From: Verrucomicrobiales bacterium
GTDB taxonomy: Bacteria; Verrucomicrobiota; Verrucomicrobiae; Limisphaerales; UBA1100
NCBI GenBank assembly: GCA_002721895.1
Contig: PBLV01000011.1
Location: 62,001-126,000, forward strand
DNA length: 64,000 bases
Reading direction: 5' to 3'
Below the pieces are notes generated by a model. That model did no database searches. It had not been told where the DNA came from and was given only the letters and a program-made list of their open reading frames with translations. A program made the position numbers and the translations under genes. Positions 3,634-12,097 of this stretch are shown in pieces (positions within the stretch are counted from its first letter, which is position 1; each line of letters opens with the position of its first letter).

Positions 3634-4782
3634 ATGTCATACCAAGTGATTGTTGTCGGCGTTGGCTCCATGGGAGCCGCAACTTGCTGGCGACTGGCCC
3701 GGAAAGGCATCAGGGTTCTGGGCCTTGAACAGGGGGCACTGCCTAACCCCCTGGCCTCCTTCGCCGGGGCGACGCGAGCCATCAGGCTTTCATACACGGA
3801 ACATCCGGATTATGTGCCGCTGCTGCGCGGGGCTTACCGGCTGTGGGATGAGTTGGGAGAGGAAACCGGGGATCAATTTCTGGTTCGAACAGGTGCGGTT
3901 TACCTTGGGAAAAAAGAGGGTTACATGGTGGGCGGCGCACTCCGGGCCGCGGTGGAGCACAGGCTGGAACATGAACTGTTGACGAGCGAGGAGTTGGCCA
4001 AACGTTGGCCCCAGTTTCAAATAGCGGAAGAGGATGTGGGGCTGTTCGAAAAAGAGGCGGGCTACGTGCTTTCGGAGAGGGCCGTGGGAGCCATGGTGCA
4101 TCGCGCTCTACTGGCGGGGGCAGAGTTAAAGGGGCATGTCGCAGTGACGGATTGGCAGCCAGATGGGGATGGTATCGTGGTCAAGACAGACCAGGGGAAT
4201 TTTCGGGCGGACCGGGTGGTCTTCGCGGCCGGGGCGTGGTCGGGAAAGATCTTGGGAGACTTGAAGACGCCCTTGAAGGTAACCCGCCAAGTGCTGGGAT
4301 GGACTTGGCCCGAGTGCCCCTTGGATTTCACGGCGGAAAAATTCCCGGTCTGGGTGGCGGATGCGGGCGGCGGTGCGGTGCACTATGGATTCCCCCTGAC
4401 ACCGGATGGATCAGGTGGCGTGGGCCTAAAATCCGCGCGGCACTTTCCAGCCATGGAGGTCGATCCGTATCATGTGGCACGTGACGTGTCGGCGGGCGAT
4501 GAAGAAGAAGTGCGGAATGGCCTGCGTCGTTTCGTGCCGAGTGGCGACGGACCGCTCTTGTCCCTGCGCGTTTGCCTCTACACCAACACTCCGGATGGAC
4601 ACTTTATTGTGGATCAGCATCCCGATTGCGAGCGCGCAATCATTGCGTGCGGCTTCAGCGGGCATGGTTTTAAATTCGCCCCGGTGATGGGCGAGGTGCT
4701 GGCGGACCTAGCGACGGAGGGAAAAACGGATTGGCCAATTGACTTTTTGGGGTTATCCCGTTTCACCGAGTCACGCACATGA
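3634..4782 (+). CDS. Monomeric sarcosine oxidase / N-methyl amino acid oxidase family flavoprotein
   Basis: 382 residues, the usual length for the MSOX/SolA family. The N-terminal Rossmann motif [17 protein letters not shown] binds FAD. The C-terminal region has [10 protein letters not shown] followed by [15 protein letters not shown]. Cys314 corresponds to the cysteine that anchors FAD covalently in bacterial monomeric sarcosine oxidase. It would oxidatively demethylate a secondary N-methyl amino acid, producing formaldehyde and H2O2. It overlaps the next gene by four bases (ATGA), so the two are translationally coupled. With the enolase-superfamily partner this suggests catabolism of an N-methylated amino acid such as sarcosine or a proline-derived betaine. 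The exact substrate is an inference. Confidence 0.85.
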
Positions 4783-5879
4783 AAATTACCGGCATCAAGG
4801 TTTATCAGGTGGATTTGCCTCTGCACGAGGGATCGTATAAATGGTCCGGCGGCAAATCGGTGGAGGTGTTCGACAGCACCGTGGTGGCGGTGGAGACGGA
4901 CGCGGGATTAACCGGCCATGGCGAGGTTTGTCCCTTGGGCCCATTCTATTTGCCGGCCTACGCGAAAGGAGCACGAGAGGGCATTGGCGAACTGGGGCCG
5001 CACTTGATCGGCCAAAACCCAACCCGGCTCGGCCCTGTGAATAGGCTGATGGATCAGGCACTGCAGGGGCACCCCTACGTGAAAAGCGCCTTGGACATGG
5101 CCTGCTGGGACATCCTCGGGCAATCAAGCGGACAAAGCGTGTGCGAGTTGTTGGGTGGCCGGCATGGGGAGGACTTTGTCCTGTACCGCGCCATTTCCCA
5201 GAAGGAGCCGGAGGCCATGGCGGAGAACATTGCCGGCTACCGCGAGGAAGGATACCGCCGGTTCCAACTGAAGGTGGGAGGCAATCCCGATGTGGATATC
5301 GAGCGCATTCGGCAAACGCGAGCCGTACTGGAACCCACAGACAAGCTGGTGGCGGACGCCAATACCGGCTGGACCCAGCATGAGGCGGCCCGGGTAGTCC
5401 GTGCGGTTCGGGACGTGGATGTGTATATCGAACAGCCTTGCCAGACCTACGAGGAATGCCTGGCCATTCGCCGGAGAACGGATCATCCTTTTGTGCTGGA
5501 CGAATGCATCGACAGCCTTCGTCCATTGATTCGCGGTCACGCGGATGGAGCCATGGACGTCGTGAACCTGAAGATCAGCAAGTTGGGCGGCTTGACGAAA
5601 TTAAAACAGGCACGAGACTTGTGTGTGGACTTGGGCATTGCCATGACCGTCGAGGACAGCTGGGGAGGCGACATTGTCACCGCCGCGATTGCGGCCCTGG
5701 CACACGGGACGCCGCCTGAACTGCTCTTCAGCTCCACGGACTTCAACAGCTACGTGACCACGAGCATTGCGGAAAATGCGCCTCAACGCGATGAAGGCCG
5801 GCTGAGAGCGAATGAAACGCCCGGACTGGGCATCGCCCCCCGGCTGGAGGTGCTGGGCAAGCCGGCCCTGGAACTGTAG
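4779..5879 (+). CDS. Enolase-superfamily (mandelate racemase/MLE) protein, possible hydroxyproline dehydratase or betaine epimerase
   Basis: 366 residues with the complete MLE-subgroup active site. Lys165 lies in FQLKVGGNP. The metal ligands are Asp193 (VADANTGW), Glu218 (YIEQP) and Asp241-Glu242 (LDECID). The second-face lysine region is KISKLGG (Lys265/Lys268). The late motif [18 protein letters not shown] resembles members that act on cis-3-hydroxy-L-proline or on hydroxyproline betaine. It would abstract an alpha proton in a Mg2+-dependent racemisation or dehydration. Coupling to the sarcosine-oxidase-like gene supports a role in imino-acid or betaine breakdown. The specific reaction cannot be fixed from sequence alone. 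Confidence 0.8.
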
Positions 5880-8119: not shown

Positions 8120-9520
8120 ATGCGAAAGACCCCTTCCCTGCTGTGGGCCGCGCTGCTGGCCCTGCCCGCCGGGGCCGCCGAAAAAACCGCGCCCCCCACT
8201 CACAAGGTTCAACCCGCCCCCTTCAAGATCGAGGTTCAGCTTGACGGCAGGTTCTCGGCACAAAAGGTGCATGAAATCACGCTGCGCCCCAAGTCATGGA
8301 CCGACCTGAGCGTGCTCAGCGCCGTTCCACACGGCGCAACGGTAAAGAAGGGTGACCCGCTGGTGAAACTCGACCTTGAAAAACTGGACCGCAAAATCCG
8401 AGACACCAAAATCGATCTGGAACTCAGCAAGCTGGACTTGGCCCTCGCCAAGGCAGACTTGGAATATGCCGAGGCCACCATCCCGCTGGATCTCACCGCG
8501 GTGGAACGCGCCTACCATGAGGTAAAGGAGGATCTCGACCGCTACCAAAAGGTCACCAAGCCCTACAACGTCAAGTCCGCCGAACGTACCGTCATCAGCG
8601 CCGCAAACTACCTCGCCAATGCCGAGGAGGAACTGAAGCAGCTGAAAAAAATGTATGAAGCCGACGACGTTGCGGAGGACACCGAGGAGATCATTTTAAA
8701 GCGCGCACAGCATGCCGTGGATCGTGCACGCCATTCGCTTGAGGGTGCCAGGATTCGAAGTGAAACCTCGCTCAAAATCACTATTCCGCGTGAGTCAACG
8801 GCCAAGAAGGAGGGCGAACTACGCAAGCGACTGGAACTGGTCAAGGCGCGCGTTTCCAATAATGCCGACCTGAAAAAGAAACAACTCACCGTTGAAAAAC
8901 AGGAAATTTCACACAATCTGGCCATCGAAGCCCTGACCAAGCTGGAGGCCGACCGGGACCGACTCATGCCCAAGGCACCAGCGGGCGGCACTGTTTTCTA
9001 CGGCACCTTTAGCCGCGGCGCGTGGAGCGGCTTGAAACTCGTTGAACCCAAGCTCAGGAAACACGGCAAACTCACCCCGGGCACCGCGTTCATGACCGTC
9101 GTGGAGCCCGGGCCACTGCGCATCCACGCGCTACTGGATGAGAAAGATTTGCGACATGTTGAAGCCGGCGACAAGGGCAACGCCACAGCCAAGGCGGATC
9201 CGGACCGTAACTTACCCGTGACGGTGGCCAACGTATCCCGTGTGCCCGTGGATGTCGGCAAGTTCGAGGTCATTCTCGAAAGCCAAGCCGGCGGCATTCT
9301 CGTGCCTGGCATGGCCTGCACGGTGAAGCTTGTGCCCTACAAAAACCCCAAGGCACTGGCGGTACCGGCCAAGGCGGTTTTTGAAGAAGACGCCGCGACG
9401 TATGTCTGGCTCAAGGGCGGCAAGAAACGCATGGTAACCACCGGAAGGAGTTTTAGTGGCAAGACTGCAATTCTGAAGGGCCTGAAAGCGGGTGATGAAA
9501 TTCTTCTCGAAAAGCCTTAG
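8120..9520 (+). CDS. HlyD/RND-type periplasmic adaptor (membrane fusion) protein
   Basis: 466 residues. A signal peptide (about 1-19, ending PAGAA) is followed by a lipoyl-like half motif (GATVKKGDPLVKLD). A long coiled-coil hairpin spans about 95-295. The second half motif and beta-barrel region include PAGGTVFYGTFSRG and PGTAFMTVVEPGPLRIHALLDEKD. A C-terminal membrane-proximal domain ends AGDEILLEKP. Such adaptors link an inner-membrane transporter to an outer-membrane channel. No transporter or TolC-like gene follows: the next genes are a toroid protein (overlapping by 26 bases) and a deiodinase-like selenoprotein, so this adaptor may work in an unusual complex. Confidence 0.82.
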   Translation: MRKTPSLLWAALLALPAGAAEKTAPPTHKVQPAPFKIEVQLDGRFSAQKVHEITLRPKSWTDLSVLSAVPHGATVKKGDPLVKLDLEKLDRKIRDTKIDLELSKLDLALAKADLEYAEATIPLDLTAVERAYHEVKEDLDRYQKVTKPYNVKSAERTVISAANYLANAEEELKQLKKMYEADDVAEDTEEIILKRAQHAVDRARHSLEGARIRSETSLKITIPRESTAKKEGELRKRLELVKARVSNNADLKKKQLTVEKQEISHNLAIEALTKLEADRDRLMPKAPAGGTVFYGTFSRGAWSGLKLVEPKLRKHGKLTPGTAFMTVVEPGPLRIHALLDEKDLRHVEAGDKGNATAKADPDRNLPVTVANVSRVPVDVGKFEVILESQAGGILVPGMACTVKLVPYKNPKALAVPAKAVFEEDAATYVWLKGGKKRMVTTGRSFSGKTAILKGLKAGDEILLEKP

Positions 9521-10691
9521 CCTGCTGGCCGCAACAGCCGCGTTCTGGGCAGCAGGGCCGGCATTGGCCGCCGAGCCGGATTTCTCCAAGAGCAACTCCG
9601 TGCCCAAGGTCGCACCGCCGGGCAATGCCAAGGTGGCCAAGTCCATTGAGCGCGGGGTTTATTTCCTGCTGGAGCGGCAGAACAAGGATGGTTCGTGGGG
9701 CAGCCCGCGCAACACGAAGGGGCTGAACATCTACGCGCCCACCTACCAAAGCCATTATGCCTTTCGGCTCGCGGTCACGGCGCTTTCCACGTCGGCCCTC
9801 ATCGAGGCAGGCGAAGATTCTCCGCGCGTGAACCGCGCGATTGAAGATGGCGAAAAATATCTGCTCGAACATCTCCCCAAGCTTCGCCGGGCCACGGCAG
9901 ACGCCATGTACAACGTGTGGTCACACGCCTACGGCATCCAAGCGTTGGTGCGAATGCGTGCGCGTCTGCCCAAGGACACCGCGCGGGTCACACAGATCGA
10001 CAAGCTAATCCGGCACCAGTTCGATCGGCTGACCCGTTATGAATCCGTCGATGGCGGCTGGGGTTATTACGATTTTCGCGCGGGTGCCAAGCAGCCCTCC
10101 AGCAGTTCCATTTCCTTCGTCAACGGCACCGTATTGCACGCCTTTCACGAGGCTAAACAAGCCGGGGTCCAACCACCCCAGCGTCTTGTCACGCGTGCGC
10201 TGGCCGCCATCAACCGCCAACGCCTTCCCGACGGCAGCTACCTCTACGGCGAATACCTGAAAATGCGCCCTCGCTCCGGTATCAACCGGCCCGCCGGCAG
10301 CCTCGGGCGTTCCCAGTGCTGCAACTTGGCCCTCCGGCTTTGGGACGACAAGAAAATCACCGACAAGGTCATGGTCACTTGGCTGAATCGTCTGTTTGCC
10401 CGCAACGAGTGGCTGGGCATGGGGCGCAAGCGACCCGTGCCCCACGAGTCGTGGTTCGCCGTGGCCGGCTATTTTTACTATTACGGCCATTACTACGCCG
10501 CACACTGCATTGAATTGGTGCCTGAACCCGATCGTGGCAGACTGCGTGACCACCTCGCCACCACGCTCATGAAACTGCAGGAAAAGGACGGCAGTTGGTG
10601 GGACTTTCCCCTCTACGACTACCACCAACAATACGGCACGGCCCTCACCGTCATGGCACTCAAGCGCTGTTTAAAACCAGAACACAAGTAA
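9495..10691 (+). CDS. Secreted alpha/alpha-toroid (terpene cyclase/prenyltransferase-like) repeat protein
   Basis: 398 residues from ATG 9495, with a signal peptide ending near ALA-AE. The body has QW-like repeats typical of squalene-hopene-cyclase and related alpha6-alpha6 barrels: LERQNKDGSWGSP near the start, VDGGWGYYDF in the middle and LQEKDGSWWDFP at the end. The catalytic DxDD motif of cyclases is not evident, so a binding or scaffolding role is more likely than terpene cyclisation. The signal peptide places it in the periplasm. It overlaps the adaptor gene and is followed 29 bases later by the UGA-containing deiodinase-like gene, suggesting one transcript. Confidence 0.75.
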   Translation: MKFFSKSLSLLAATAAFWAAGPALAAEPDFSKSNSVPKVAPPGNAKVAKSIERGVYFLLERQNKDGSWGSPRNTKGLNIYAPTYQSHYAFRLAVTALSTSALIEAGEDSPRVNRAIEDGEKYLLEHLPKLRRATADAMYNVWSHAYGIQALVRMRARLPKDTARVTQIDKLIRHQFDRLTRYESVDGGWGYYDFRAGAKQPSSSSISFVNGTVLHAFHEAKQAGVQPPQRLVTRALAAINRQRLPDGSYLYGEYLKMRPRSGINRPAGSLGRSQCCNLALRLWDDKKITDKVMVTWLNRLFARNEWLGMGRKRPVPHESWFAVAGYFYYYGHYYAAHCIELVPEPDRGRLRDHLATTLMKLQEKDGSWWDFPLYDYHQQYGTALTVMALKRCLKPEHK

Positions 10692-10720
10692 CGCCGCGCA
10701 CTCTCGACGCGTCTAACAGG

Positions 10721-11503
10721 ATGATGCAAAGGATGACATGGGCCATGGCGGCCCTCGGGCTGGCGGGGATAATGTTCGCCCAAAACGCACCCCGCCGACC
10801 GGGCAGCATGGCTGCCCGGGAGTTCTTCCGTCTGATTGATGCGAATTCCGATCACCGCATCAGCGCCATGGAATGGTCGGCCTTCTGCAAGCCCGCGGAT
10901 TTCAAGGCCGCTGACACCGACAAGGACGGCCACGTTGTTCCACGCGAGTTGCATCATTTCATGCAGCCCGGCCAAGGTGCCCCGATTCGTGGCATGGGGC
11001 CGGTCGTGGGCACACCCGCACCAAAGGTCAGCGCCAAACATCGGGACACCGGCAAGCTCATTAACCTTTCCAAGGTCAGCCGGCCAACCGTCTTGATTTT
11101 TGGATCCTACACTTGAGGGCCCTTCGCCCGGGAGGCCGTGCGCCTCCAGAAAAACTACGAGCAGTTCAAGGATCGCGCTGATTTTTGGTGGGTCTATATC
11201 CGTGAGGCGCATCCAACTGATTCCGCCCGACCCGCACGCCATGTGCAGATCGAGCAGCCAAAGACGTTTCTGCGGCGACAGGAAATTGCCGGCCAATGCT
11301 CCGCCGGGTTGGACCTGAAAATCCCCTGTGTGGTGGACGATATGGAGGACACCGTCGCCCGCGCCTACGCTGCTTTTCCCGACCGCCTTTACATTCTGGG
11401 AACCGATTCCCGCATTGCCTACCAAGGCGGCCGCGGGCCACGCGAATTCAACATCCCCGAGATGGAGGAAGCGCTGAAAAAACTGCTGTCGAAAAATGAC
11501 TAG
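10721..11503 (+). CDS. EF-hand deiodinase-like selenoprotein (in-frame UGA read as selenocysteine)
   Basis: One continuous frame of 260 residues if TGA at 11114-11116 is decoded as Sec132. A signal peptide (about 1-21) is followed by two EF-hands, loop 1 DANSDHRISAME and loop 2 DTDKDGHVVPRE. The thioredoxin-fold domain then reads LIFGSYT-U-GPFAREA. Vertebrate iodothyronine deiodinases have FGSxT-U-xxF here, and further downstream ADF..(V/I)YI.EAH..D, matched by ADFWWVYIREAHPTD. The frame stays open and family-like on both sides of the TGA. A bacterial-type hairpin follows it. It is probably a periplasmic Sec-dependent oxidoreductase; iodothyronine chemistry is not implied. Conventional annotation would give two fragments. 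Confidence 0.9.
11131..11147 (+). promoter_or_regulatory. Candidate bacterial SECIS hairpin of the deiodinase-like gene
   Basis: Directly downstream of the UGA at 11114-11116 lies a perfect 6-bp stem, GGAGGC (11131-11136) with GCCTCC (11142-11147), closing a 5-nt loop CGUGC. The loop G is about 22 nt after the UGA. Bacterial SECIS elements sit within the coding region at roughly this distance and carry a G early in the apical loop, where SelB binds. The match is by eye; no folding was run. Confidence 0.65.
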
Positions 11504-11514
11504 CCAATCCCACG

Positions 11515-11916
11515 TTACTTTTTCGTGTAGGGATTCTTGCCCGGCGGATACTCCTTGTGAGGCTCGTGGCAGCCCCGGCAATTGGTGGCCGCTTCAAAAT
11601 CGTCCACCGTGCCCATGCCATCGGCTATCGCCTTGGCCGCCGCCACCACCGCCGCCGACTTTTCCGCCCAGCTTGCCGCCGTTCCCTTCTTGGGAGCAAA
11701 CCCTGGAAGCGTCTCCGCATAGACTAGGAACAAATCCTTGTCCGCCTGCGTCGCCACGCCGTCGATAATCTTCTTGCGTAGCGACTCGTCACCCTTGAAC
11801 CCCTCCTGCATCACAGTCTTCATCGACGGTTGCCCGCCCTCGAACAACTTGCAGGCCGTGGTGAGCAAAGCGAAAACGGCACACAAGGTGCCCCAGCGAA
11901 TCATGGCATTTTTCAT
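11515..11916 (-). CDS. Small lipoprotein with one CxxCH haem-binding motif (cytochrome c-like)
   Basis: 133 residues from ATG 11916. The N-terminus MKNAMIRWGTLCAVFALLTTACKLF is a lipoprotein signal with a TTAC lipobox. The body is helical (KKIIDGVATQADKDLFLVYAETL), and the single haem site is CRGCHEP close to the C-terminus, with a Lys/Pro-rich tail. It resembles small cytochrome c-type proteins, with the haem motif placed C-terminally as in cytochrome c-prime-like four-helix bundles. It is probably periplasmic and membrane-anchored, with an electron-transfer or ligand-binding role. It converges on the selenoprotein gene with an 11-base gap and no clear terminator. Confidence 0.7.
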   Translation of the reverse strand: MKNAMIRWGTLCAVFALLTTACKLFEGGQPSMKTVMQEGFKGDESLRKKIIDGVATQADKDLFLVYAETLPGFAPKKGTAASWAEKSAAVVAAAKAIADGMGTVDDFEAATNCRGCHEPHKEYPPGKNPYTKK

Positions 11917-12097
11917 CGGATCAAGTCTCATGGCGGACACATCCGCCCAACACAGGATTGGGCAACCCGGCCCTGCCTGTCAATCACATCACCCGGCACC
12001 CATAACATTCTGGGGTTGCATTCCCTAAATGGCGAAGTAGTCTTGGAGCGTCAAAGTCCTAACGCGCTTGGACAACAGCGTTAAGAAAAACATAGCT

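Follow-up and report, generated by a model that had tools for sequence, protein, structure and literature searches.

The bacterial gene, likely from the Verrucomicrobiota, at positions 10721 to 11503 of the window, by which we mean the whole 64-kb stretch of DNA analysed, raises the question of whether a single in-frame TGA ends a short EF-hand protein or encodes the selenocysteine (Sec) of a longer, deiodinase-like enzyme, as the initial annotation had proposed. The frame was found to be open save for this one TGA (11114-11116), and translating TGA as U gave a protein of 260 residues followed by a TAG stop, with the codon in the context LIFGSYT-U-GPF, in line with the active site of deiodinases. 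The gene was laid out as follows:

10721..11503, plus strand: whole gene, predicted to encode an EF-hand deiodinase-like selenoprotein (open frame with TGA as U; PF00837 across the TGA; TGA kept in 51 other loci)
10721..10780, plus strand: likely signal peptide, residues 1-20, with predicted cleavage between A20 and Q21 (hydropathy; A-Q junction common to relatives)
10838..10873, plus strand: EF-hand loop 1, DANSDHRISAME, residues 40-51 (PF13405 and PF00036 over cut-off)
10913..10948, plus strand: EF-hand loop 2, DTDKDGHVVPRE, residues 65-76 (PF13202 over cut-off)
11009..11485, plus strand: T4_deiodinase domain, residues 97-255 (PF00837; nearest solved structures 4tr3 and 9h48)
11114..11116, plus strand: in-frame TGA, predicted selenocysteine codon, residue 132 (sequence; same TGA in relatives)

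Pfam searches with the U-containing translation gave a match to PF00837 (T4_deiodinase) that spans the TGA (residues 97-255; E 1.1e-26, 94 bits, cut-off 27), bearing out the deiodinase-like domain of the initial annotation. The piece after the TGA matched PF00837 by itself (1.8e-18) and the side before it matched EF-hands. Three EF-hand models (PF13202, PF13405 and PF00036) scored above their own cut-offs with the acidic loop positions present, in agreement with the two loops first noted, and a match to a further model, PF13499, lay under its own cut-off. The N-terminus, which had been described as a signal peptide, contains a 12-residue stretch with a mean hydropathy of 2.1, and an A-Q pair was present in the same region in all 21 N-termini compared (from 25 sequences, with starts set by hand); both observations fit that description, and the protein is likely to be exported. 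The NCBIfam model NF038285 (deiodinase_rel) matched residues 92-256 (2.4e-51, profile positions 174-344 of 347), with a score of 175.3 bits that did not reach its curated cut-off of 250.

Were the UGA an ordinary stop, the gene product would be an EF-hand protein of 131 residues, and what follows would be either decaying sequence or a separate product translated from a GTG at 11138. A frame beginning at this GTG does exist, but it lacks the catalytic residue and the first part of the fold. The residue found at the TGA position in relatives bears directly on this, and the initial annotation had suggested looking there for Cys or Sec. Protein databases gave 365 homologue matches, and among the 120 listed, to which our counts refer, 112 carry Cys at this position, two carry Trp and six start just past the site, so that Cys accounts for 112 of the 114 listed sequences in which the position is covered. 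The six (P0004-P0007, P0061 and P0103) start directly after the TGA position; such cut proteins would suit an ordinary stop, and they are also what is expected from frames cut at TGA.

At the DNA level, a scan of genome contigs yielded 27 loci, mostly in Verrucomicrobiota assemblies, and TGA was present at the active-site codon in 24 of the 24 that were readable. L023, which lies at a contig edge, L026, in which no active-site motif was found, and L027, which matched only in its EF-hands, were left out of this count. One of the 24 (L015) has unknown letters near the site, with the TGA itself certain. Over the domain, the nearest relative of the window (L001) shows 77% identity. A Cys homologue then served as query in a DNA-level search of a second draw, made up of 149 genomes from the phylum of genome G011, whose locus L011 is titled Planctomycetaceae; 49 matched, 46 of these with a TGA inside the match, and in 27 loci the position of the TGA was confirmed. 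Here 28 of the 30 loci fetched were readable (L057 and L083, without a motif match, were left out), with 27 TGA and one TGC. Altogether, 51 of the 52 readable loci besides the window have TGA and the other has TGC, with no TAA or TAG, a pattern that argues against an ordinary stop and, with the Cys of the database homologues, answers the search for Cys or Sec in favour of Sec. In a third draw, from the phylum of G023 (Roseibacillus), 14 of 288 genomes matched; the match covered the deiodinase domain only in G023 and G239, both with TGA, and the other matches were to the EF-hand region. Since standard gene calling cuts genes at TGA, the protein search returned Cys forms for the most part (112 of the 120 listed), and the excess of Cys forms in databases is probably due to Sec frames cut in this way.

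The two Trp-bearing homologues, P0002 (a cluster of 60 sequences) and P0003, could be taken to mean that UGA is read as tryptophan under an altered genetic code. Against this stand the Cys of nearly all covering homologues, the SECIS-like hairpin that follows the UGA (below) and the TGA stops with which the same gene closes in L003-L006, L012, L013 and L016-L018. P0002 and P0003 fall inside the TGA clade and come from contigs of 1.2-1.4 kb, and so their Trp may be the product of gene calling under code 4. We rejected the tryptophan reading, to which we give almost no credence, on the Cys in homologues and the TGA stops that end relatives' own genes.

A tree was built by a quick method from 80 rows, with 46 of the 112 Cys rows used and L024 left out for its frame break. 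The window lay within a group of 24 Sec rows, eight cut or Trp rows and one Cys row (P0008), with SH-aLRT support of 99. Mouse Dio3 and L039 were placed on long branches, and the tree therefore gives no origin for the animal deiodinases. Alignment A3 was made without L024 (frame break), L004, L005, L013, L015 and L018.

Several loci drew attention in their own right. L039, in G239, is a deep-branching TGA form with the motif SSFT-U-PPF; its contig also carries selB, about 2.4 kb away. In Roseibacillus persicicus KCTC 12988 (L024:5926-6493) the TGA-form gene loses its frame past mid-domain and its tail lies in another frame, through an indel or a sequencing error. L011:4008-4973 is a Verrucomicrobiota-type gene, closest to L007, on a 5-kb contig titled Planctomycetaceae, a placement that reflects mis-binning or transfer. 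Residue 129 was seen to track the catalytic residue, being Asn in 101 of the 120 listed homologues (mostly Cys forms) and Ser in most of the TGA forms shown.

The sequence after the TGA evolves as coding sequence. dN/dS after the TGA was 0.03-0.14 in all 11 locus pairs, out of 13, for which it was defined, values that are rough for several pairs in which dS exceeded 1 and synonymous sites were near saturation; for the window against L001 it was 0.10 after the TGA and 0.24 before it. This low dN/dS indicates that the tail is very probably translated in frame, and such strong purifying selection is at odds with an ordinary stop. A sequencing error or a pseudogene was rejected, as the same TGA occurs in 51 other loci and the tail is under purifying selection.

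Folding of the RNA after the UGA, which the initial annotation had put forward as a check, revealed a candidate recoding signal:

11131..11147, plus strand: SECIS-like hairpin GGAGGC-CGUGC-GCCUCC, its loop beginning 20 nt past the UGA

The loop carries a G at position 2, and the structure agrees with the description of bacterial SECIS elements in PMC1088965 (a stem-loop that directly follows the UGA and has a small apical loop containing G). The hairpin is kept at a nearly fixed distance past the UGA in relatives. In an alignment of 20 rows (A2, made without L005, L013, L015, L016 and L018), double-sided changes occurred at two pairs (G-C to C-G and G-C to A-U), 90.8% of cells were paired compared with 81.2% in shuffles, and sliding the partner strand broke the pairing. 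Three of five measures were better than all 500 shuffles, the counts of double-change pairs and of pair types in A2 being no better than shuffles, and RNAalifold agreed on the helix. Stems in the second phylum are more diverged and still paired; among their loops are CGGGC (at 20 nt) and GGUC (at 21 nt). When hairpins of -6 kcal/mol or lower were counted at the site, the first set had one in 19 of its 25 sequences (the window counted) and the second in 25 of 27; for other in-frame codons in these loci the figure was 247 of 8164. One middle-pair mismatch breaks it in L012, L013, L016, L018 and L024; within the second set L062 has no such hairpin and that of L076 is weak. Taken whole, the 76-nt stretch after the UGA in the window folded no better than shuffles (z 0.38), and an Rfam search for SECIS gave no match. 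The check thus came out in favour of the initial proposal, with a hairpin that is kept in relatives with compensatory changes, and this covariation also weighs against an ordinary stop.

Selenocysteine would require its decoding genes, which the initial annotation had proposed to seek in the rest of the genome. No sel gene was found within the 64-kb window (tblastn, long frames of L032, L036 and L037), and the search was run in 25 relatives' genomes, where SelB was over cut-off in 21, SelA in 21 and SelD in 23. A tRNA-Sec was reported in 20 by tool count and in 18 at 54 bits or more; only these 18 were counted because the hits in G008 and G010 (47 bits) are accompanied by other tRNA-like matches. 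SelB, SelA, SelD and tRNA-Sec occur together in 16 of the 24 genomes whose TGA gene was readable, and at least one of the four occurs in 23. G010, a 1.7-Mb assembly, is without SelA, SelB and SelD and has no tRNA-Sec by the count at 54 bits or more. In G001, the genome of the nearest relative, tRNA-Sec, SelD, SelA and SelB all lie on one contig. As background, 14 of the 288 genomes drawn from the Roseibacillus phylum had SelB over cut-off. The second draw had SelB in 43 of 46 TGA-form genomes (the exceptions being G373, G443 and G458) compared with 62 of 103 others (Fisher 1.2e-5, with kinship ignored). In 12 of the 23 genomes with SelD over cut-off (G011-G013, G016-G020 and G022-G025), the SelD gene carries a single in-frame TGA of its own, which is an independent sign of Sec decoding. 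The presence of Sec genes in relatives' genomes is a further point against an ordinary stop, which we now consider very improbable.

The open frame, the family match, and the TGA and hairpin of relatives agree on the selenocysteine reading first proposed for 11114-11116, and we hold with considerable confidence that 10721-11503 is the gene of an EF-hand deiodinase-like selenoprotein. On this reading the hairpin at 11131-11147 would be the binding site of SelB, which would bring Sec-tRNA to the UGA; failing Sec-tRNA delivery, translation would end after the EF-hands, at 131 residues.

The structure of the protein was modelled with AlphaFold2 (mean pLDDT 80.5; below 50 at residues 16-28, 85-90 and 167-170, the last of these falling inside a deiodinase-type insertion). 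Foldseek with this model returned mouse Dio3 (4tr3) and Dio2 (9h48) first, with ResA-type thioredoxins and peroxiredoxins next, and a profile search of the PDB also placed 4tr3 (7.7e-30) and 9h48 (1.3e-24) first. PMC11592359 names Ser, Thr, Tyr, Glu, His and His as residues of the proposed deiodinase proton relay. All but the last are kept in the window protein (S129, T131, Y159, E162 and H164), the second His being Pro180, and the positions of Tyr159, Glu162 and His164 are kept in 120 of the 120 listed homologues. According to PMC9141512, DIO1 and DIO3 have a proximal Cys two residues before Sec, which is Ala in DIO2, and in DIO1 a disulfide between this Cys and the catalytic residue was demonstrated; the position is Tyr130 in the window protein, which differs in this from DIO1 and DIO3. 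The position of animal-deiodinase Phe258 is Pro220. Another cysteine could take the resolving role:

11297..11299, plus strand: codon of Cys193, candidate resolving cysteine (Cys in 116 of the 120 listed homologues)

Outside the cytoplasm, the selenolate of Sec132 would take an electrophilic atom from the substrate, with a proton supplied via a deiodinase-type relay of S129, T131, Y159, E162 and H164. The oxidised selenium would then be resolved by Cys193, the candidate resolving thiol, and reduced by a thiol, and the EF-hands may bind external calcium and stabilise or dock the enzyme. We prefer a deiodinase-like reductive step because the relay Tyr, Glu and His are kept throughout the listed homologues. 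The substrate class that we tentatively favour, at rather less than even confidence, is small iodinated or brominated organics, which would undergo reductive dehalogenation; hydroperoxides rank close behind.

If hydroperoxides were the substrate, the protein would be an exported, peroxiredoxin-like selenoprotein peroxidase in which Sec132 reduces the hydroperoxide, Cys193 resolves and the likeness to deiodinases is one of fold only. The peroxiredoxin model PF00578 (AhpC-TSA) is over cut-off in the window protein (2.1e-06), Redoxin or AhpC-TSA matches occur in several relatives, the ResA-type thioredoxins and peroxiredoxins come after the deiodinases in Foldseek, and a redox function was suggested by the authors of the 2005 study (PMC1088965). 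The invariance of the deiodinase-type Tyr, Glu and His and the presence of the relay-bearing insertion speak against a peroxidase, which we regard as a possible reading, somewhat on the doubtful side.

The neighbourhood of the gene offered no clear clue to its function. Two genes lie directly upstream:

8120..9520, plus strand: periplasmic adaptor-like gene of RND_mfp/HlyD type (TIGR01730 7.2e-25, under its cut-off)
9492..10691, plus strand: squalene-cyclase-like repeat gene, upstream, 29 nt before the selenoprotein gene (weak PF13243 match)

The cyclase-like gene is possibly co-transcribed with the selenoprotein gene, and no match to a sigma-70-type promoter was found at 9400-11700. Kin of the cyclase-like gene lie upstream of the gene in L001-L006 (the L006 copy at a contig edge) and kin of the adaptor-like gene were found in L001, L003 and L005; ten neighbours from seven loci gave mixed Pfam families or none. 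Elsewhere in the window, the plus-strand frames 3634-4782 and 4779-5879 were over NCBIfam cut-offs for N-methyl-L-tryptophan oxidase and cis-3-hydroxy-L-proline dehydratase, respectively, and are likely an amino-acid catabolic pair. Just downstream of the selenoprotein gene, a small converging frame on the minus strand (11515-11940) carries a terminal CxxCH (TNCRGCH; by eye) and is c-type-cytochrome-like, with no Pfam or NCBIfam match.

The initial annotation had called the combination of signal peptide, EF-hands and Sec domain unusual and perhaps undescribed. The first of these views did not hold: EF-hand Pfam domains are present in 100 of the 120 listed homologues (of 365; counted by eye), making EF-hand plus deiodinase a common architecture, and EF-hand TGA forms occur in two phylum sets. 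By eye, 18 of the 24 readable loci of the first set have EF-hand loops, and the other six (L019-L022, L024 and L025) have a signal-like N-terminus and no such loops; in Pfam, EF-hands were over cut-off in L001, L003, L013 and L017 and absent from L019. At least two EF-hand-like loops were seen in 10 of the 27 TGA loci of the second set, and the five of these run through Pfam (L056, L072, L073, L075 and L080) were all over cut-off. As to the second, bacterial deiodinase-like selenoproteins have been known since 2005, when the Sargasso Sea study (PMC1088965) described deiodinase-like proteins of bacteria, four with Sec and six with Cys, together with bacterial SECIS elements; the GOS study of 2008 (PMC2398784) lists 22 and 21, respectively, and two reviews (PMC9312934 and PMC13188914) list the family with the motif UxxC. 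The word EF-hand is absent from the main text of these four papers, and no report of an EF-hand/Sec deiodinase-like fusion was found among the open-access papers searched. The fusion and the extent of Sec dominance are thus what we did not find in print.

Compared with these bacterial selenoproteins (PF00837), the window protein is alike in its domain, its predicted active-site Sec, and a SECIS-like hairpin right past the UGA with a small G-bearing loop, and it adds EF-hands and a likely signal peptide ahead of the domain; its U-G-P-F also differs from the UxxC of the reviews. With the Cys-type 'deiodinase family protein' of planctomycetes and others (NF038285) it shares EF-hands and a deiodinase-like domain, whereas the window gene has TGA in place of Cys, a shorter N-terminal part and a score of 175, below 250; where the window protein has Ser129, most Cys forms have Asn. 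Animal DIO1-3 (4tr3 and 9h48) are alike in fold, Sec position and relay Ser, Thr, Tyr, Glu and His, but the window protein is without the proximal Cys, the second relay His and Phe258, has EF-hands and a likely signal peptide where the animal enzymes have a membrane anchor (PMC9141512), and has its SECIS inside the coding frame rather than in the 3' UTR; we do not class it as an iodothyronine deiodinase proper. Peroxiredoxins and ResA-type thioredoxins share the thioredoxin fold and a nucleophile at a helix start, but match more weakly (PF00578 compared with PF00837) and contrast with the deiodinase-type insertion and relay residues of the window protein.

A broader proposal, which we put forward as a speculation and think unlikely as it stands, is that the typical deiodinase-like enzyme of bacteria is an exported selenoprotein, and that external calcium gates or stabilises many of these enzymes by way of EF-hands. 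On this proposal they would form a large, database-hidden set of selenium-based reductive dehalogenases in Planctomycetota and Verrucomicrobiota and could be the stock of the animal thyroid-hormone deiodinases. If true, the deiodinase-like family would in those bacteria usually have selenocysteine as its catalytic residue, in many cases together with EF-hand modules, and would provide soluble bacterial enzymes with which to test deiodinase chemistry, calcium dependence and origin.
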